Shown: positions 32,654-43,161 of the stretch, one piece after another
Layout: every line of letters begins with the position of its first letter
Numbering within the stretch: position 1 is the stretch's first letter
Assembly: GCA_021847605.1 (NCBI GenBank)
Contig: JAJZQN010000002.1
Location: 124,001 to 188,000 of the forward strand
DNA length: 64,000 bases
Origin: Pseudomonadota bacterium
Lineage (GTDB): Bacteria > Pseudomonadota > Alphaproteobacteria > Sphingomonadales > Sphingomonadaceae
Direction: 5' to 3'
The notes under the pieces: model-generated
Database searches by the model: none
The model's input: only the letters and a program-made list of their open reading frames with translations
What the model was told of the DNA's origin: nothing
Translations under genes and position numbers: made by a program

Positions 32654-33781
32654 ATGAAGATGGAACGGATGAGCGTAAAGCGCCTTGGCATGGCGGGCGC
32701 GGCCTGCGCGCTGCTGGCGGCGGTCGGCTTTGGCTGGGCCAGCCATGCGGCCGACCCTCAGCCACTCTATAGCGTCGCACCCGATGTTGTGGTTGGCGAA
32801 ACCGCGCTACGCGCCGCCATTGATCCATTGTTCGACGATAGCGACATGGGCCAGACCCGCGCCCTTTTGGTGATGCGCGATGGTCAGATCGTGGCGGAGC
32901 GCTACGCGCCCGGCTTTGGTCCCGATACGAAGCTGCTGTCCTGGTCGATGGCGAAGAGCGTTACGAGCGTCCTCGTCGGCCTGATGGTATCGGACGGGCG
33001 GCTGGCACTGGATTCCCCGGTGCCGGTCGCAGCGTGGAGCCAGCCGGGCGATCCGCGCGGCCGCATCACCTTGCGCCAGTTGCTTCAGATGACCAGCGGT
33101 CTCGATCATGTCGAGGATGGCGAACCGATCGAAAACGGCGATACCGTCCGCATGCTTTTTACTTCCGGCGCGCAGGACATGGGCGCCTTTGCCGAAAGCA
33201 AGCCGATCGCCCATGAACCGGGCAGCGAATTCTCCTATTCCACCGGCAGTTCGGTCATCCTGTCCGACCTGATGGCGCGGATGCTGACCAACAGCGAAGA
33301 TCCCGACACGCGCCGCCGCGCGATGCAGATGTTCATTGACGGCCGGTTGAAGGCTCCGGGCAATCTGTCCAGCCTGACGCCCGAATATGATGCGGCAGGG
33401 ACCATGATCGGCGGCAGCTTGATGCACATGACCGCCCGCGATTATGGCCGATTCGGCGAATTGCTGCGCCGCCATGGCCGGTCCCCCGCCGGACATCAGA
33501 TCGTGCCGGAAAAGTGGGTGGACTTCATGACGACGCCTTCGCCGCGCAATGCAGCCTATGGCGCGCATATCTGGCTGAACCGCGACAGCGCCGAAAGCGC
33601 ACTTATGCCAGGACAGGCACCCACCAGCATGTTCGGATGCGTCGGCCATAATGGCCAGTATATCCTCATTTCCCCCTCGCAGCGGTTGACAGTGGTTCGC
33701 ATCGGCATGTCTCCGAAAAAGGAGCAGCGCATAGCGGTCAAGACAGCGCTTGCCCGCATTGTCGGCCTCTTCCCAAGCTGA
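32654..33781 (+). CDS. secreted serine hydrolase, beta-lactamase class C fold
   Basis: The protein has 375 residues with an N-terminal signal or anchor (VKRLGMAGAACALLAAVGFGWA). SxxK is in LLSWSMAKSVTSVL, the Y-S-x motif in FSYSTGSSVIL, and HNG replaces the KTG triad near the end (VGHNGQYILI). This pattern is nearer to the 6-aminohexanoate-dimer hydrolase/esterase branch than to true beta-lactamases. The substrate is unknown. AAGGG lies 8 nt before ATG 32654. Confidence 0.82.
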   Translation: MKMERMSVKRLGMAGAACALLAAVGFGWASHAADPQPLYSVAPDVVVGETALRAAIDPLFDDSDMGQTRALLVMRDGQIVAERYAPGFGPDTKLLSWSMAKSVTSVLVGLMVSDGRLALDSPVPVAAWSQPGDPRGRITLRQLLQMTSGLDHVEDGEPIENGDTVRMLFTSGAQDMGAFAESKPIAHEPGSEFSYSTGSSVILSDLMARMLTNSEDPDTRRRAMQMFIDGRLKAPGNLSSLTPEYDAAGTMIGGSLMHMTARDYGRFGELLRRHGRSPAGHQIVPEKWVDFMTTPSPRNAAYGAHIWLNRDSAESALMPGQAPTSMFGCVGHNGQYILISPSQRLTVVRIGMSPKKEQRIAVKTALARIVGLFPS

Positions 33782-34257: not shown

Positions 34258-35232
34258 CTATTCGCAGCGACGTGTATCCGGCATCGACAAAGGGGGATCG
34301 GACAGGAGGCCGGGACCGGTCAGACTTTCGAGAAAGGCGATGAGCGCCGGCATATCCGTATTTGCGATCGGCAGGCGATGACGTCGCACCGCATCCTCCA
34401 TAGAACGGGCGGTTCCGTCATGCCACCATGGCCCGGTGAGCGCGACATTGCGGAGCGGAGGGGTGCGGAAACGCCCGGCATCCTCCGCCCGTCCGGTCGC
34501 TTCGATCAGGCCAGGATCGCCCGCCTGCGCGGGTTCCAGCGCATGATAGTCCATATCGCTCAGGTCGCGCCCGGCATGACAGCCGGCGCACCCCCGCTGT
34601 TGGAACAGGCCTTCCCCCCGTATCGCCAGCGGAGCCATTGCCGCAGCATCTCCGCCGCGCCATCTGTCATAGGGGCTGTCGAGCGCAATCATCGTGCGTT
34701 CGAACGCGGCCAGCGCGGCTGCCACCGTAGCGCTGTCGATCCGTCCCCTATGTTCGGGAAAGGCGCGCGCGAACAGGCGCCGGTAACAGCTATTGGCGCC
34801 CAGCCGCCGAGGCAATTCCGCCTCCATCCCTTTCATGCCCATTTCGACCGGCCGTTCGCCGACCAAAGGCACTGGCACCTGCGCCTCCAGCGTGGTGATT
34901 GCCGGATCGGCGATGGTCAGGCGGGGAAACCATGCCACATTGGCAAGGCCCGGCACATTGCGCCGCCCCGGCCCGCCATGCACCCCCGGTCGGGTCGCAT
35001 TGCCATCGGCGAAGGCACGTTTCTGTTCATGGCAACCGGCGCAGGCCAGCGTGCCGTCAGCCGATAGATCCGCGTCGTAGAAAAGACGGCGGCCGAGCGC
35101 GACCTTCGCCGCGCTCATCCCATTATCGGCGGGGACAGGCGGCGGTGTCACGCCATCGGGCAGCCGCCATTGCCAGCCGGGCGTCGCCGCAGCCGTCAGG
35201 ATCAGCAGCGCGACGACGCCCAACCATCGCAT
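34258..35232 (-). CDS. MauG/MbnH-like di-haem enzyme (cytochrome c peroxidase superfamily)
   Basis: This 324-residue exported protein has two haem c sites, C64-AGCH and C215-AGCH. LGRRLFYDADLSADGTLACAGCH and RNVPGLANVAWF are the superfamily blocks. The stretch LTIADPAITTLEAQVPVPLVGERPVEMG replaces the FWDGR motif of ordinary peroxidases and resembles the branch that includes MbnH, which oxidises tryptophan of its partner MbnP. W101 lies where an inter-haem Trp would be expected. PWWHDG stands for the usual PYMHDG. ATG 35232 overlaps the stop of the preceding gene by one base, so the two are coupled. Confidence 0.78.
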   Translation of the reverse strand: MRWLGVVALLILTAAATPGWQWRLPDGVTPPPVPADNGMSAAKVALGRRLFYDADLSADGTLACAGCHEQKRAFADGNATRPGVHGGPGRRNVPGLANVAWFPRLTIADPAITTLEAQVPVPLVGERPVEMGMKGMEAELPRRLGANSCYRRLFARAFPEHRGRIDSATVAAALAAFERTMIALDSPYDRWRGGDAAAMAPLAIRGEGLFQQRGCAGCHAGRDLSDMDYHALEPAQAGDPGLIEATGRAEDAGRFRTPPLRNVALTGPWWHDGTARSMEDAVRRHRLPIANTDMPALIAFLESLTGPGLLSDPPLSMPDTRRCE

Positions 35233-35783
35233 CACGACAGCGGCGTCACCATGACCGTCATCGTTTCCGCGCCATTGGCTGCGATCTGAAGCGTGTAGAC
35301 GCCCGGCGTCAGGCTATAATCCACCATCTTGCGCACGCCGGTGCAGTCAGGCCCATGACCATGGGCCGTGGAGGTGGACGCCGCCCCATCCTTCACCACA
35401 TCGACCCATGCCCCGCTGGATAGCGCGACGCGCCATGTCCCCGCCTGCGCCACTGTAAAGCGCAGCAGGCCACCATAGCTGACGCTGCCTCCCGGCTTTT
35501 CGGGTTGCAGGGCGTAGGCGACTTTGGGTGTCGGCAGCAGCGTGACCGTCGCAGCCTTTCCCGCCGTCAACGCGGCCTTGGCCAGACCCTTTTCAGTTCC
35601 CACGGCCTTGACCGCAGCAGGCGAGGCCCAGCCCGCCAAGGCATCAGGCAAGGGTACTGGCGTGGCGCAGGTCGCATGCGATGGTTCGGCCATCTGCGCC
35701 GAAGCCATGTCCGCGCCCGAGAGCATTGGCATAGCCAGTGCCAGGACCGGCAGCAGAATAGTCGGCCGCTTTAAAGGAGACAT
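35232..35783 (-). CDS. small secreted beta-rich protein with His/Cys cluster, partner of the di-haem enzyme
   Basis: The protein has 183 residues. The signal peptide ends near ADMASAQ (30). The mature part has C39, a beta-sandwich-like region (GGLLRFTVAQAGTWRVALSSGAWVDVVKDG), the cluster HGHGPDC (H141, H143, C147) and LTPGVYTLQIAANG as in periplasmic PPC-like domains. Tryptophans are W52, W117 and W126. I do not recognise it as a named family; it is not the four-cysteine MbnP type. Translational coupling to the di-haem gene suggests it is that enzyme's substrate or metal-carrying partner. Confidence 0.6.
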   Translation of the reverse strand: MSPLKRPTILLPVLALAMPMLSGADMASAQMAEPSHATCATPVPLPDALAGWASPAAVKAVGTEKGLAKAALTAGKAATVTLLPTPKVAYALQPEKPGGSVSYGGLLRFTVAQAGTWRVALSSGAWVDVVKDGAASTSTAHGHGPDCTGVRKMVDYSLTPGVYTLQIAANGAETMTVMVTPLS

Positions 35784-35808
35784 CCGGGCTTTCCTCACGA
35801 ATGATAGA

Positions 35809-35829
35809 CTGTATACCCCCCGATATAGC
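35809..35829. promoter_or_regulatory. G6-tract operator-like site between the divergent genes
   Basis: In the 78-nt divergent spacer, the minus strand reads CTATATCGGGGGGTATACAG. The TATA-flanked G6-TA core is like the proposed DmeR operator at 28038. RcnR/CsoR sensors bind such G-tracts, so metal control is plausible for both operons. No local regulator gene is present. Confidence 0.45.
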
Positions 35830-35861
35830 GAGTCGAAAGACCGAAAAAGGGGGAAAATCAA

Positions 35862-38003
35862 ATGCGTGTTGCTCTATCCTGTCTATTGAGCGCCACTTGT
35901 CTAGTCGCACCAGTTGCGTACGCACAGGATAATGCGCCCGATGATGGCGGTAACGATCGTTTTTCGCTTGGCCAGATCATCGTCACCGCCCCCCGGACTG
36001 AAGGCATTGGCATCGACAGTTCGACCCTGTCGTCCAACGCCATCTATACGTTCAGTCGCGCCTCGCTGGACGATGCGATAAACCTGATGCCGGGCGTGTC
36101 GTCGGGCAATAGCGGTGGCACGCGCAATGAACGGCTTGTCTTCGTACGCGGTTTCGACCGTTTTCAGGTACCGTTGTCGATCGACGGCATCCGCGTCTAT
36201 TTGCCCGCCGACAACCGGCTCGACTATGGCCGCTTTCTCACCACCGACATTGCCGAGGTTCAGGTGGCCAAGGGCTATGCCTCCGTCCTCGACGGGCCGG
36301 GCGCGATGGGCGGCGCGATCAACCTCGTCACGCGCAAGCCGACCAAGGAACTGGACATCGATGTGCGCGGCACGGTGAATTTCGATCGGGATGCCGACTA
36401 TGCCGGCTATTCCACCAGCGCGATGATGGGGACGAAGCAGGATAAATGGTATGCGCAGGCGAGCTATGCCCGCAGCTTCACCGATCATTGGGATCTGCCC
36501 GGCGGCTTCACGCCGACGGTGCCGACACTGGAGGACGGCGGCGCACGCGACTTCTCTCGCACGCGCGACTGGCGACTGAATGCCAAGGTCGGCTTCACCC
36601 CCAATGCCACCGACGAATATGCGATCAGCTACACGCGGCAGGAAGGCGCGAAGAGTGCGCCCCTGCACGTCAGCGACACCGTGACCACGGCGCGCTTCTG
36701 GGACTGGCCGTCGTGGGACATAGACAGCGTCTATTTCCTGTCCACCACCGCACTGGGCGACCGGGCGACGCTGAAGACGCGGGCCTATTATAATCAGTTC
36801 GATTCGATCCTGCGGTCGTTCAACGACCGTAGCCAGACGACGCAAAGCCGCCCCTATGCGTTCGACAGCCCCTATGCCGACAAGGCGTGGGGCGGGTCGG
36901 CCCAGCTCGATTTCCGGGCGACCGATGCGGATACGCTGCGCCTCGCCTTCCACTATCGTCACGACAAGCATGTGGAGGCGCAGACCAGTTTCTCCACCGC
37001 AGGCGTGGCGACGACCGAGCCGGACCAGACACAGACCGAAAACACCTTCTCGATCGCGCTGGAAAATGAGATCGCGCTGACATCGGCCCTGCGGTTCACG
37101 CTGGGCGGCAGCTATGACTGGCGCGACCTCAAGCGGGCGGAGGAATATGGCGCGCCGCTCGGCACGTCCGGCGCGTCGGTCATCTATAATTACCCGCGCC
37201 GCGATGCCGACACCTGGAACCTGCAAGGCCGTTTCGACTGGCAGGCGAGCGAGGCGTTGAACCTGCATGCCAGCCTGTCGTCACGGGCGCGTTTCCCCAC
37301 CATCTTCGAACGCTTCAGTCAGCGGTTCAACAGTGCCATCCCCAATCCCACGCTGAAGGCCGAACGGGCGACCAACGCCGAAGTCGGCGGCAGCTGGGCC
37401 AATGACAAGCTGCGGGTAGAAGGCGCGGTCTTTTATAGCTGGGTCGATGACGCGATCTTCAGCGTGCTGACCCCGGCCTATCCCTGCACAGCGTCCACCA
37501 CCCCGCCCGCGGTTCCGCGAGCCGGTTGCGCGCTCACCAACCTGACGCAGAGCCAGAATGTGGGTTCGGGCAACTATCTGGGTGCGGAAATCTCCGTCTC
37601 ATGGTCGGTCATGCCGGGGCTGGATGTGGGCGCCAATTATACCGGCATTCGCCGTCACCTGCGCTACGACGCCAATCCCGCTTTCCGCCCGACCGGCGTG
37701 CCGACGCACAAGGGGTTTGTGTGGGCCGACTGGTCGCCGGTCGAGAGGCTGCATATCGTACCGAGCGCCGACATCGCGTCGGATCGCTGGACATTGTTCA
37801 CCGCAACCCCGGCCAGCGCGGCGCAGCGTTATTATCGCACGGGGGCTTATGTGAATGCTGGCCTGCGCATCGATTATGCGCTGACCGATCATATCGATGT
37901 CGGTGTCGGCGGACGCAATCTGTTCGACGATTATTATACGCTGACCGACGGGTTCCCCGAGCCGGGCCGGACGCTGTTTGCCAGCATCCGCGCCCGTTAC
38001 TAA
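35862..38003 (+). CDS. TonB-dependent receptor (713 aa), probable metal-complex importer
   Basis: Signal peptide to AQ at residue ~22; TonB box-like GQIIVTA; plug about 40-150 with GVSSGNSGGTRNERLVFVRGFDRFQVPLSIDGIRVYLP and GPGAMGGAINLVTRKP. The barrel ends FPEPGRTLFASIRARY with a terminal aromatic residue. Shape and length are those of siderophore or cobalamin-type receptors rather than the larger sphingomonad glycan receptors. GGGGGAA lies before ATG 35862. It is divergent from the secreted partner and di-haem genes, an arrangement that echoes mbnT with mbnPH. Confidence 0.88.
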   Translation: MRVALSCLLSATCLVAPVAYAQDNAPDDGGNDRFSLGQIIVTAPRTEGIGIDSSTLSSNAIYTFSRASLDDAINLMPGVSSGNSGGTRNERLVFVRGFDRFQVPLSIDGIRVYLPADNRLDYGRFLTTDIAEVQVAKGYASVLDGPGAMGGAINLVTRKPTKELDIDVRGTVNFDRDADYAGYSTSAMMGTKQDKWYAQASYARSFTDHWDLPGGFTPTVPTLEDGGARDFSRTRDWRLNAKVGFTPNATDEYAISYTRQEGAKSAPLHVSDTVTTARFWDWPSWDIDSVYFLSTTALGDRATLKTRAYYNQFDSILRSFNDRSQTTQSRPYAFDSPYADKAWGGSAQLDFRATDADTLRLAFHYRHDKHVEAQTSFSTAGVATTEPDQTQTENTFSIALENEIALTSALRFTLGGSYDWRDLKRAEEYGAPLGTSGASVIYNYPRRDADTWNLQGRFDWQASEALNLHASLSSRARFPTIFERFSQRFNSAIPNPTLKAERATNAEVGGSWANDKLRVEGAVFYSWVDDAIFSVLTPAYPCTASTTPPAVPRAGCALTNLTQSQNVGSGNYLGAEISVSWSVMPGLDVGANYTGIRRHLRYDANPAFRPTGVPTHKGFVWADWSPVERLHIVPSADIASDRWTLFTATPASAAQRYYRTGAYVNAGLRIDYALTDHIDVGVGGRNLFDDYYTLTDGFPEPGRTLFASIRARY

Positions 38004-38834: not shown

Positions 38835-38956
38835 GGGTGAAGCTCCCCTGATATTTCCCCACCGCGAACAATGTCGCATCCACCAGAGTTTGTCACCTGC
38901 TCAATGACTTGCCTTTATCGCCCTGCACTATAGTCTCGCCGATAGCAGGGGTGCCC

Positions 38957-39649
38957 ATGGCCGGAACGGATGCAGGATCGGACGAAAGACTGGCTGCGGC
39001 GCACCGTGCGCTGCGGGCCAATGGCGATATTCAGTTCGACATGATGCCCGCCCCGCCGCCGCCTACTGCGCCGGCATGGCTGAAGGCGCTGGGCGAATGG
39101 GTGGAATGGGCGCTGGCCCCGGTCGGACGTTTCCTGCGCTGGATCGGCAGTTTCATGCCGGATGCCCCCTATGCGCGCATCTTCCTGTGGACCATCATCG
39201 GCGTGCTGGCGCTGATGATCCTGTGGATGGTGCAGGATCGCATCCGGCATGGCGTATGGCGGCTGCCGACGCGCAAGCGACGCATTGCCGGTCCGACCGC
39301 AATGGTCGAGGATGACTGGGCGCCCGAGGCAGCGCCAGCGCGGGCGTGGCTGGAACAGGCGGATCAACTGGCGGCCGAGGGCCACTATGACGAGGCGGTG
39401 CATCATCTGTTGCTGCGCAGCGTCGAGGATCTGGCGCGGCGCAGGCCGCAAATCGTCCGACCGGCGCTCACCAGCCGCGACCTTGCCCGATCACCCGGCA
39501 TACCTGCCGCGCCGCGCCGCATGTTCGGTGAAATCGCGGCGGTGGTGGAACGCAGCCTGTTCGGTAGCCGGGCCATCGACGCCGAACAATGGGACCGCTG
39601 CCGTCAGGCCTATGCCGACTTTGCCCAGACCAGAAGCTGGGCGGCATGA
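38957..39649 (+). CDS. DUF4129 domain membrane protein
   Basis: The protein has 230 residues. One transmembrane helix (IFLWTIIGVLALMILWMV, about 75-93) separates a short N-terminal part from a cytoplasmic DUF4129 domain (ARAWLEQADQLAAEGHYDEAVHHLLLRSVEDLARR, LARSPGIPAAPRRMFGEIAAVVERSLFG). DUF4129 is typically found with MoxR ATPases and DUF58 proteins. It opens a six-gene operon and overlaps the next gene by ATGA. Confidence 0.82.
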   Translation: MAGTDAGSDERLAAAHRALRANGDIQFDMMPAPPPPTAPAWLKALGEWVEWALAPVGRFLRWIGSFMPDAPYARIFLWTIIGVLALMILWMVQDRIRHGVWRLPTRKRRIAGPTAMVEDDWAPEAAPARAWLEQADQLAAEGHYDEAVHHLLLRSVEDLARRRPQIVRPALTSRDLARSPGIPAAPRRMFGEIAAVVERSLFGSRAIDAEQWDRCRQAYADFAQTRSWAA

Positions 39650-40887
39650 GCGACATCAGCCTGACCCAATCCGGCAAGGATGGCGGCCTGTTCCGCTTTG
39701 GCACCATCGCCCTGATGCTGGCCATCGGCCTGATCGGTTTTGCCGGCATGCTGCTGCTGGGTGCCTATGCGCCGGATTTGCGGTCGGGTAAAAATGGCGG
39801 CGCCCATGCGTTGTCCAATGCAGTGACGGGGTTCAGCGGCATCGTTGAGCTGGCGCAGGCGACCGGACGCCACCCCCGCATCCTGCGCAGCAGCCATGAT
39901 TTCGATACCGAAGACCTGCTGGTCGTCACGCCGGAGGATGGCGCGACCAATATCTCGGCCGCGCTGATGGGGCGTTCCAGCAAGCCGACCCTGTTCGTCC
40001 TGCCCAAATGGCAGACCAGCGCCGATGAAAAACATCCCGGCTGGGCGCGCTATAGCGGCCTTGTCCCGCTGTTCGAGCCGATCGGCGTGTTGTCGCCCGG
40101 CATCCGTTTCACCATGCGCCAATATCGCAGCGGCGGCGGCAGCCTCATTTCGCATGACGCGCCTGACGGCTTTTGGGCGCCGCGCCCGATACAGGTCATC
40201 ACCGGGCTGGAACAGAATAACAAGCAACAGCAGGATCAATGGCGCACCCTGACCCCGATCATCACCGATCGGAAGGGCGGCATGATACTGGTCCGCGTCG
40301 GCGAAGGGCCGCTTTATGTACTGGCCGATCCCGACCTGCTCAACAATCGCGGCATGAAGGATGAGGGACAGGCGGCAAGGGCACTGGCCCTGCTCGACTG
40401 GCTGAACAGCACCGATGCGGACGGCATTGCATTCGACGTGTCGATGAACGGGTTCGGTCATTCGAAAAGCCCGCTCAAATTGTTGTTCGAACCGCCTTTT
40501 CTGGCGATGACATTGGCGATTCTGGCCGCTCTGCTACTGGTCGGCATCCGCGCCTTCGGCCGCTTCGGGCCGGAAGTCATGCCCGATCGCACCATCGCTT
40601 TCGGCAAGGCGGCACTGGTCGACAATAGTGCGCTACTGATCCGCAAGGCAGGGCGTGAGGCACGTCTGGGCGGACGCTATGCCGCCGCTATTCGCGAACA
40701 TGCCGCCCGCATCTTTGGCGCGCCACCGCGATTGCGGGACGCTGCGCTCGACGCCTATCTCGACAGTCTGAAAGGCCGCGAGCGCTTCACCGATCTGGTG
40801 CGCGCGGCAGAAACATCCACACATCGTAACAGCCTGCTGGAAGCTGCGCAGGCGCTGCATGATTGGCAGGGGGAGAAACGCAGGTGA
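39646..40887 (+). CDS. DUF4350 domain membrane protein
   Basis: This 413-residue protein has an N-terminal transmembrane helix ([26 protein letters not shown]). An extracytoplasmic region follows with [25 protein letters not shown] and [20 protein letters not shown], typical of DUF4350/GldG-like sensor folds. A second helix ([20 protein letters not shown]) leads to a cytoplasmic tail. The reaction is unknown. It is coupled on both sides by 4-nt overlaps (ATGA before, GTGA after). Confidence 0.8.
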
Positions 40888-41840
40888 ATGTCGAACAGGT
40901 CCAGACGCTGGCCGCCGCCATCCGGCAGGAGGTCGCACGCGCCGTCATCGGACAGGAAGCGACCATCGACCTGATGCTCGTCGCGCTGTTTTCCGGTGGC
41001 CATATCCTGCTGGAAGGACCGCCGGGAACGGCCAAAACGCTGATCGCGCATAGTTTCGCCCGTGCGCTCAGGCTGGATTTCGGCCGCATCCAGTTTACGC
41101 CCGACCTGATGCCCGGCGACATCATCGGCGCCAATCTGTTCAATTTCCAGACGAGCCAGTTCACCCTGACGCGCGGGCCGATCTTCACCGAATTGCTGCT
41201 GGCCGACGAAATCAACCGCACCCCGCCCAAGACGCAGGCCGCCTTGCTGGAAGCGATGCAGGAAAGGACCGTCACCATTGACGGCGAAACACTGTCGCTC
41301 AGCGATCGCTTCATGGTGGTGGCGACACAAAATCCGATCGAGCAACAGGGTGTCTATCCCCTGCCCGAGGCGCAGCTCGATCGTTTCCTGTTCAAACAGA
41401 CGGTCGATTATCCCAGCGCGGAGGAGGAAAGACGGATCGTCGCCACCCATGGCGCGCGCACCCATGCCATGGCACCCGAAGACTGGGGCATCACCCCCGT
41501 CACCGACGCCGCCGGCATAGCCGAGGCGATCGAGGCGGTAGGACAGGTCAGGCTGGTCGATGAGGTGGTCGATTATATTCTGGCGCTGATCCGTGGGACA
41601 CGCGACATCGCCGATCTGGAAAGCGGCGCGTCTCCGCGTGCCGGGGCGATGCTGGCCGGTGCGGCGCGGGCGCGGGCAGCGATAGATGGGCGCGATTTCG
41701 TCATCCCCGATGACGTCAAGATGCTGGCCCCCGCCCTGTTGCGCCATCGCCTGATCCTGTCGCCCGCAGCGGAAATAGACGGTCGTCGTATCGAGGATGT
41801 CGTCACCGGTATCATCGAGATGATAGAGGCACCGCGCTGA
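40884..41840 (+). CDS. MoxR family AAA+ ATPase
   Basis: The protein has 318 residues. Walker A GPPGTAKT near 45, Walker [25 protein letters not shown], sensor 1 [24 protein letters not shown], and the MoxR lid with SPRAG. MoxR ATPases remodel or activate partner proteins that bear von Willebrand A folds, here likely the DUF58 product. GTG 40884 (GTGA overlap with the previous stop) is the probable start; a codon further upstream is possible. Confidence 0.92.
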
Positions 41841-41850
41841 TCCGCACGCC

Positions 41851-43161
41851 ATGATCTATCCCACCCGCACCTCCATCTGGGCCGCGGCGGCGGGCGTGCC
41901 GCTGACGATGATTGTCGCCATCATGGTGCCGGGGCGATGGTATGCGGCGCTGGCATGGCCGGTGGCGGTGCTGGCGCTCACCCTGATCGACGGACTGCGC
42001 GGGTCGCGCCCGTCGCAGGCATCGGCGCAGGTAAGCCTGCCCCCCGGTGCCAGCGTGGGCGGACCCGTGGAGGCGACCATAGAGGTGGCGATTGCCGGCG
42101 CGGCGCCGGCCGTCGTGCAATTTGCGGCGAACCTGTCCCCCCTGTTGAAGCAGGAAGAGGGTGAAGACTGGATCAGGCTAAGTCATGGCAGGGGCAGAGC
42201 CATCCTGCCGATGACCGCGATCCGGCGCGGAACCGCGCGGATCGACCGGCTTTGGCTGCGCTGGCGCGGGACGATGGGGCTGGCATGGAAACAGCGGATC
42301 GTCGCGGTGGAAGCCCAAGTCGCCATCCTGCCCGATGTTCGTCCGGTGCATGAACGCGGCGCACAGATATTCCAGCGCCACGCCCTGCAAGGATTGATGG
42401 CGCAGATCGATCGGGGCGACGGCGCGGATTTCGATGCGCTGGTCGAATTTCGCACCGGGATGGATCGGCGTGCGATCGACTGGAAACAGTCGGCCCGCCA
42501 CGTCAAACTCCATGCCAAGGAATATCGAACCGAACGCAACAACCAGATCGTCTTTGCGATCGACAGCGGTCGCCAGATGAGCGAGCCGGTCGCAGGCCTC
42601 AGCCGGCTGGACCGTGTGGTGTCGGCCATGCTGCTGACGGGCTGGGTCGCGCTGAAGCTGGGCGACCGGGTTGCGTTGCATGCGTTCGATTCCCGCCCCC
42701 GCATCGCCAGCGGCCTGGTGTCGGGCGCCGGCGCCTTTGGCGAATTGCAGCGGCTGGCTGCACGCATCGATTATAGCGGTGAGGAAAGCAATTACAGCTT
42801 TGCCCTCTCTTCTCTTGCCGCACGGCTGACACGGCGATCGATGATCGTCCTATTCACCGAGTTCACCGACCTGACCTCTGCCGAATTTCTTGTGCGGGCA
42901 GCGGCGCGGCTGGTGGAGACGCATTTGCTGATGATCGTGGTGCTGCGTGATGAGGAACTGGAATCCTTCGTCGAGCGCCGGCCGCAAAGCGCCGACGACG
43001 TAACCCGCGCCGTCACCGCCTCTGCGCTGTTGAAGGACCGGCTGATGGTGCTGACCCGGCTGCGTCATCTGGGCGTGCATGTGGTTGAAAGCGAATATGA
43101 TCGGGTGGCCGACCGGCTGGTGCAGGCCTATGTCGACCTCAAGCGGAGGAACCTGCTGTGA
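41851..43161 (+). CDS. DUF58 (VWA-like) membrane protein
   Basis: The protein has 436 residues. Two short hydrophobic helices at the N terminus (TSIWAAAAGVPLTMIVAIMV; WYAALAWPVAVLALTLI) precede a beta domain and the DUF58 signature VEFRTGMDRRAIDWKQSARHVKLHAKEY. A VWA-like fold follows with IVFAIDSGRQMSEPVAG (a degenerate MIDAS, DSGRQ for DxSxS). It usually works with a MoxR ATPase. It ends in a GTGA overlap with the SpoIIM gene. Confidence 0.9.
   Translation: MIYPTRTSIWAAAAGVPLTMIVAIMVPGRWYAALAWPVAVLALTLIDGLRGSRPSQASAQVSLPPGASVGGPVEATIEVAIAGAAPAVVQFAANLSPLLKQEEGEDWIRLSHGRGRAILPMTAIRRGTARIDRLWLRWRGTMGLAWKQRIVAVEAQVAILPDVRPVHERGAQIFQRHALQGLMAQIDRGDGADFDALVEFRTGMDRRAIDWKQSARHVKLHAKEYRTERNNQIVFAIDSGRQMSEPVAGLSRLDRVVSAMLLTGWVALKLGDRVALHAFDSRPRIASGLVSGAGAFGELQRLAARIDYSGEESNYSFALSSLAARLTRRSMIVLFTEFTDLTSAEFLVRAAARLVETHLLMIVVLRDEELESFVERRPQSADDVTRAVTASALLKDRLMVLTRLRHLGVHVVESEYDRVADRLVQAYVDLKRRNLL

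Follow-up and report, generated by a model that had tools for sequence, protein, structure and literature searches.

The DNA analysed here (the window) is a 64-kb stretch of contig JAJZQN010000002.1 from a member of Sphingomonadaceae, and the text concerns a four-gene locus in it. The locus encodes a TonB-dependent outer-membrane receptor, a small secreted protein, a di-haem c-type enzyme and a ModE-like regulator. It is best read as a molybdenum-regulated, TonB-dependent acquisition unit with a bis-His di-haem redox partner, a reading to which we assign a probability of about one half and in which the substrate and the role of the enzyme are conjectural. Since a gene set similar to those of copper uptake carries here the DNA switch of molybdenum genes, the locus probably represents an undescribed route for fetching molybdenum.

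The DNA switch is located between the divergent receptor and small-protein genes. Divergent loci share an intergenic palindrome, CTATAT-N8-ATATAG, of which, when up to one mismatch is allowed, upstream stretches of 510 bp taken from 140 small-gene loci contain 73 copies and the remaining 2,013,411 bp of these loci seven. A copy is present in 42 of the 48 divergent loci that have both receptor and enzyme. The copy at 35809–35828 is the sole such match within the window. The initial annotation had described a ‘G6 operator’ here; a real sequence element does exist at this place, but the G6 run is merely the variable spacer of the palindrome CTATAT-CGGGGGGT-ATACAG. The run was rejected as the operator itself because the spacer sequence differs between loci. 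The half-site spacing of the palindrome equals that of the ModE consensus, ATCGNTATATA-N6-TATATANCGAT (PMC545781), and a near-identical consensus is given in PMC2700814; here and below, PMC numbers refer to the available parts of the papers. In a further 13 loci (Nitrobacter, Caulobacteraceae, Methylorubrum and others), of which 12 have the enzyme, the receptor and small genes lie on the same strand. An exact CGnTAT-N12/13-ATAnCG stands upstream of the receptor in 11 of these 13 loci versus 3 of 260 random windows, with an N12 spacer, as in the consensus, in five cases and N13 in six. The two loci without it both belong to Methylorubrum; one (L099) has an exact CTATAT-N8-ATATAG upstream and the other (L101) has just 454 bases available upstream of the small gene.

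The box also precedes other genes. The genome from which the window comes contains two exact copies of CTATAT-N8-ATATAG. One is upstream of a different, 785-aa TonB receptor and itself follows, at a distance of about 0.8 kb, a second single-domain ModE-like gene (C86, L126:4565-8142); receptors of 784–800 aa adjoin boxes in L232, L233, L257, L258 and L261, their likeness to the 785-aa receptor being one of length only. The other copy precedes a molybdenum-hydroxylase operon with FAD and molybdopterin subunits assigned by Pfam; the first gene, about 145 bp after the box, encodes a 2Fe-2S subunit as read by eye, with what we take, also by eye, to be a Tat-type signal. A SulP-family permease gene (L127:5491-6963) ends just before this box and operon, and the permease may itself be an oxyanion transporter.

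Among 397 genomes of the family, 66 exact sites were found in 57 genomes, versus 14 sites for a reversed control pattern (hand count). Nineteen of the 66 lie at known small-gene loci, two are those of the window's genome and the other 45 are contained in 44 fetched regions, of which 14 include a ModE-like gene and four another small gene. The adjacent genes scanned (40 of 52) comprise ten TonB receptors, five ModA solute-binding proteins, each above the modA cut-off, three ABC permeases, one being ModB at 0.8 kb from its box, and one protein with a [2Fe-2S]-binding Fer2_2 domain; the others include genes without a molybdenum theme, such as those for a PhoD-like phosphatase and an alginate-export porin. 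The genes found around the box (modA, ModE-like genes, molybdenum hydroxylase, TonB receptors) thus make it most likely an element of the molybdenum regulon over a background of chance sites, with binding by the regulator and the signal being presumed. The link to copper made in the initial annotation is unsupported, because the operator is a ModE-type box that also serves, by its position, a molybdenum hydroxylase and the modA genes of related genomes.

The ModE-like regulator aligns with TIGR00637 at 65.4 bits over model positions 2–85 of 100, below the cut-off of 98.5. With about 125 aa it lacks tandem Mop domains, the full-length ModE model being matched at positions 5–103 of 263 only. A regulator with no molybdate-binding half detected might answer another signal, and the locus would then import a substrate other than molybdenum. 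The receptor would suit this explanation, since the profile search places it nearest to haem and siderophore models, all below cut-off (the best NCBIfam model being TIGR01785, 138.1 bits, under that model's cut-off). So would the single-domain ModE of Desulfovibrio, for which the mechanism of molybdenum sensing is described as not clear (PMC545781). We consider the explanation unlikely, as the same box stands before the ModA genes of relatives and before the molybdenum hydroxylase.

The association of the genes is conserved beyond what chance would give. A scan of 84,980 species genomes yielded 296 stretches encoding a relative of the small protein, and the best 80 of these were kept as the close set; three of the 80 have less than 1.7 kb of downstream sequence. 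In this set, the di-haem gene lies directly downstream of the small gene in 66 loci, the receptor family upstream in 65 and both in 60, so that the triad proposed by the initial annotation is borne out. The hosts of the receptor with its two partners are soil and water bacteria: Sphingomonadaceae, Nitrobacter, Caulobacter and Methylorubrum. Small-protein homologues are present in 74 of 298 family genomes searched, where 18 of the 30 loci with the best scores (the window's own included) have the di-haem gene and none of 48 weaker ones does. Homologues that mostly lack a di-haem neighbour, named by the initial annotation as evidence against its proposal, thus prevail at the level of the family but not in the close subfamily.

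A second set of 60 loci consists of the 48 weaker loci and 12 of the 30 best ones; as the 12 entered it for having no enzyme, its enzyme count of 0/60 is partly a matter of choice. Of these loci, 11 have the receptor. A ModE-like gene, looked for from −4.5 to +5 kb around the small gene, occurs in 29 of the 80 close loci and in 12 of the 60. The two sets have some genomes in common, and the gene models of the locus were built from stop-free long matches only (65, 61 and 32 rows including the window). The counts indicate, therefore, that the small protein is associated with receptor and regulator more widely, and that the enzyme belongs to one subfamily. None of receptor, enzyme and regulator was detected by these models in 40 of 140 loci, whose commonest flanking genes are mreB, leuA, mutL and a 2OG-Fe oxygenase gene (six each), followed by ruvABC (4–5; 112 of 153 genes scanned). 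One partnerless locus (L095) adjoins a TonB receptor of another family, so ‘isolated’ small genes are isolated by the present models only. When the open reading frames (ORFs) of the 80 loci were clustered, the large groups consisted of the locus genes and ORFs overlapping them; the groups next in size comprised just 17 and 15 loci. In Croceibacterium xixiisoli (L109:3997-11585), the small and di-haem genes follow a cluster with haem-copper oxidase subunit I and a sensor kinase, and the small gene is preceded by a one-mismatch box.

The best named family of the enzyme is MbnH (TIGR04039, 258.8 bits, under the curated cut-off of 362.85), and its best PDB match is 6e1c, ‘Di-heme enzyme’ (3.8e-64). 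In a midpoint-rooted tree of 49 rows, 20 rows form a distinct 100/100 group: 18 locus members, the window's enzyme and an orphan paralogue from the same genome, all with His as axial residue of the C-terminal haem. The group lies inside a 100/99 branch that also holds nine over-cut-off MbnH and one long row. Profile, PDB match and tree agree, and the original placement of the enzyme in the MauG/MbnH branch, apart from ordinary cytochrome c peroxidases, is supported at the level of sequence. All 65 aligned rows, which comprise the window and 64 of 66 enzyme-bearing loci, share the axial His, as do the paralogue and, by printed motif, three further loci. After trimming of the sequences before alignment, the 30 loci found with the TIGR04039 model showed axial Tyr in 26, Met in three and His in one, the window's own; all nine over-cut-off MbnH have Tyr. 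The paralogue (C20, L002:1477-2499) is 50–53% identical, and no small protein or receptor was recognised by similarity within the 4 kb seen. In the genome of L040 (Sphingobium sp. Leaf26), where the small-protein locus is enzyme-less, a di-haem gene elsewhere (L272) has an axial Tyr by printed motif.

The enzyme also has a conserved Gln119 (64 of 65 aligned rows) and Glu131 (65 of 65); we take both to be members of a peroxidase pocket. Mutants of related enzymes give the axial His a meaning: BthA Tyr463His does not form the near-infrared (bis-Fe(IV)) feature with H2O2 and retains H2O2 reduction (PMC6405878), and the same loss is cited there for MauG Tyr294His. From these mutants and the axial His found throughout, we infer bis-His ligation and peroxidase-type chemistry. 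A rival explanation builds on the same features: ModE-like control would be real, the enzyme would be a periplasmic peroxidase giving protection from the H2O2 that molybdenum hydroxylases of this regulon release, and the receptor would import something else that is needed alongside these hydroxylases. The conserved Gln119 and Glu131, the peroxide-reducing BthA mutant and the box before the molybdenum-hydroxylase operon, with its apparent Tat-type signal, would fit it. This explanation, which we regard as improbable, leaves unaccounted for the overlap of the enzyme and small-protein genes and a loop of the small protein that tracks the enzyme; moreover, small protein and receptor are also found with the box but without the enzyme.

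The small protein gave no Pfam or NCBIfam family and no sequence match among solved structures (PDB) at E ≤ 1. Compared with MbnP, it has no TIGR04052 match at E ≤ 1 and an hhalign probability of 0.7%, which agrees with the new partner class suggested earlier. As a positive control, the WxW-picked neighbours of eight of the nine over-cut-off MbnH all match MbnP (8/8; the ninth was unscanned). The TIGR04052 model found no MbnP in the window's genome, in a search in which control genomes were equally silent. The AlphaFold model of the small protein (predicted local distance difference test, pLDDT, 88.1) has as its nearest solved folds the collagen-binding (PPC-like) domains of ColG/ColH (Foldseek E 2.4e-4); superposition on the ColG domain aligned 105 residues with a Z score of 10.3 and a root-mean-square deviation of 2.8 Å. 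The protein is thus predicted to have a PPC-like fold, and the fold alone gives no function.

Residue conservation was compared in three sets of loci: A, enzyme-bearing (67, one being the window's own), B, enzyme-less but with receptor, box or regulator (34), and C, with none of these (39); enzyme-less loci with less than 1.7 kb downstream were omitted from the position-by-position comparison. Trp126 is found in 67/67, 34/34 and 30/39 members of A, B and C, respectively, and Cys147 in 67/67, 34/34 and 35/39. Trp52 is present in 66/67 of A and, among rows reaching that position, in 31/31 of B and 29/29 of C, whereas Trp117 is Trp in only 15/67 of set A. The sharpest tracker of enzyme presence is the PGG[ST]V loop (66/67 in A, 5/34 in B and 0/39 in C), the exception in A being PSGSV in L039; weaker signals of this kind come from residues 86, 93, 123, 153 and 169–171. 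Two of the set B members that keep the loop (L090, L096) come from genomes in which a His-type enzyme is encoded at another place, next to a receptor gene and an exact box; in one of these genomes, that enzyme is accompanied by a second small gene. Mapped on a 98-row tree of the small protein, the presence of the enzyme has to change 10 times, at least six of these by starred branches, and branch support is uneven. Enzyme losses fall inside the enzyme-bearing group, several with altered loops (PGDSV, PGESG, PGDAA).

The initial annotation proposed that the enzyme modifies a Trp of the small protein. Trp as the enzyme's target was rejected, since Trp conservation does not follow enzyme presence; Trp117 is poorly kept and the axial Tyr is His. 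The corresponding copper triad of methanobactin type, with the small protein undergoing Trp oxidation by the di-haem enzyme as MbnP does by MbnH, is the least likely explanation and very doubtful: the MbnH branch of the enzyme, the gene order (TonB receptor, partner, di-haem gene), Trp126 in every enzyme-linked member and MbnPH-like genes known from copper-linked operons (PMC9426467) favour it, but the operator is of ModE type, BthA and cited MauG mutants with Tyr changed to His lose the bis-Fe(IV) signal (PMC6405878), Trp52 and Trp126 are equally conserved in enzyme-less regulon homologues and the profiles (TIGR04052, hhalign) give the small protein no similarity to MbnP.

The features of the locus are listed below. 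Those described by the initial annotation (two CxxCH motifs, TGATG coupling, HGHGPDC, three Trp, two Cys in the mature chain and a divergent TonB receptor) were all confirmed. The stop of the small-protein gene overlaps the start of the di-haem gene (TGATG), and the ModE-like gene, counted as the fourth gene of the locus, is convergent with the latter. The CxxCH motifs of the enzyme occupy residues 65–69 and 216–220 counted from GTG, or 64–68 and 215–219 from ATG. The small protein has an apparent signal peptide, with Cys39 and Cys147 lying beyond it. The operator is 25 nt from the ATG of the small gene and 33 nt from that of the receptor.

Features of the locus, in window positions; residue numbers of the small protein follow the 183-aa sequence
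Feature	Position	Strand	Details
ModE-like regulator, DNA-binding domain only, ~125 aa	33834–34211	+	ORF open from TTG 33750
Di-haem c-type enzyme, MbnH branch, His-axial subclass	34258–35235	−	His286 replaces the Tyr of MbnH/MauG
Small secreted protein, predicted PPC-like fold, 183 aa	35232–35783	−	HGHGPDC; W52, W117, W126; PGGSV loop at residues 97–101
ModE-type operator, CTATAT-CGGGGGGT-ATACAG (read on −)	35809–35828	unstranded	palindrome between divergent genes
TonB-dependent outer-membrane receptor, 713 aa	35862–38003	+	PF00593 and PF07715 above cut-off

The ModE-like gene is immediately preceded by that of a beta-lactamase-family (PF00144) serine hydrolase (32654–33781). Downstream of the receptor, ORFs at 38909–43161 have the look of what is presumably a MoxR-ATPase/DUF58-type cluster.

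Taking the locus as a molybdenum-regulated acquisition unit, the following sequence of steps can be proposed. A ModE-type protein would bind the palindrome between the two divergent transcripts and control both; the box, its spacing and its conservation are observed, and binding, repression, their direction and a molybdate signal are presumed. The receptor would import a molybdenum- or tungsten-bearing species, either the free oxyanion or a chelate, through the outer membrane. The PPC-like protein with its H-x-H-G-P-x-C motif may serve as a binding or hand-off partner of the imported species. The His-axial enzyme would be a peroxidase-type redox partner acting on or through the small protein, with the PGG[ST]V loop as its putative docking or acting site; the overlapping genes, the aligned axial His and the co-variation of the loop are the observed basis of this step, in which contact, ligation and reaction are supposed. 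The most likely role of the enzyme would be redox processing of a metal–ligand complex, for example oxidation of an organic chelator to free the metal; Trp oxidation as in MbnP is unlikely.

Several observations weigh against this interpretation. The box in the window itself deviates from the core at one position, and it does not match the CGnTAT-N12/13-ATAnCG form even when one mismatch is allowed. The modA of the same genome has no box at up to one mismatch, just a degenerate site near modB. The reversed control pattern already yields 14 sites in the 397 genomes, and 14 of the 44 fetched box sites are inside called genes and probably due to chance. Molybdate-binding models (Pfam and NCBIfam profile search) gave no match to the regulator, and because it is devoid of known molybdate-binding domains, the molybdate signal stays presumptive. 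A di-haem neighbour is missing in 14 of the 80 close loci. Three enzyme-less loci (L067, L082, L098) keep the loop, and no His-type enzyme was found in these genomes, whose completeness is not stated. Finally, the correlation of loop and enzyme partly follows descent.

A broader proposal can be made only tentatively: a TonB-dependent outer-membrane route for molybdenum (or tungsten) would exist across several alphaproteobacterial families, in which the metal is captured or released jointly by a bis-His member of the MbnH branch, constituting a previously unrecognised coordination class, and a metal- or ligand-binding protein of PPC-like fold. If true, the molybdenum regulon would extend to the outer membrane, which molybdate is usually held to cross through porins. 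A molybdenum-regulated TonB receptor with two conserved partners would make outer-membrane molybdenum acquisition directly testable. Among the MauG/MbnH enzymes, the present one would also be a natural example of His in place of Tyr, a substitution known from mutants (PMC6405878). Among the matches listed from the open-licence literature, none concerns, by title or abstract, a ModE-controlled TonB receptor or an MbnH-like/PPC pair. According to a term search, the available main text of a review of sphingomonad TonB transporters (PMC7142613) has no word starting with ‘molybd’, and the accessible part of a Nitrobacter transcriptome paper (PMC10781756) contains nothing on the locus.

With the ModE molybdate regulon, the locus shares the spacing of the palindrome and the presence of modA genes and a molybdenum hydroxylase behind the box. 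It differs in that the regulator has a single DNA-binding domain and in that the box precedes genes for TonB receptors, the di-haem enzyme and the small protein, none of them mentioned as ModE targets in the available parts of PMC545781 and PMC2700814. BthA and MauG belong to the same superfamily as the enzyme and have two CxxCH haems; the six-coordinate haem of BthA, however, is Tyr–His ligated and is compared with MauG (PMC6405878), while His is aligned here. MbnP/MbnH of methanobactin and other copper-linked operons (TIGR04052/TIGR04039; MopE-SACCP, CorA-CorB analogues) are similar in the branch of the di-haem enzyme, in the pairing of its gene with that of a secreted partner and in the TonB receptor MbnT often being adjacent (PMC3621798); the differences are the axial His in place of Tyr, a PPC-like partner with no similarity to MbnP detected and the ModE-type operator. 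As far as sequence can tell, the locus resembles MbnT/P/H in plan, but its proteins fall outside the MbnH and MbnP families. If its molybdenum regulation is real, the locus suggests that the MbnH branch is not bound to copper.

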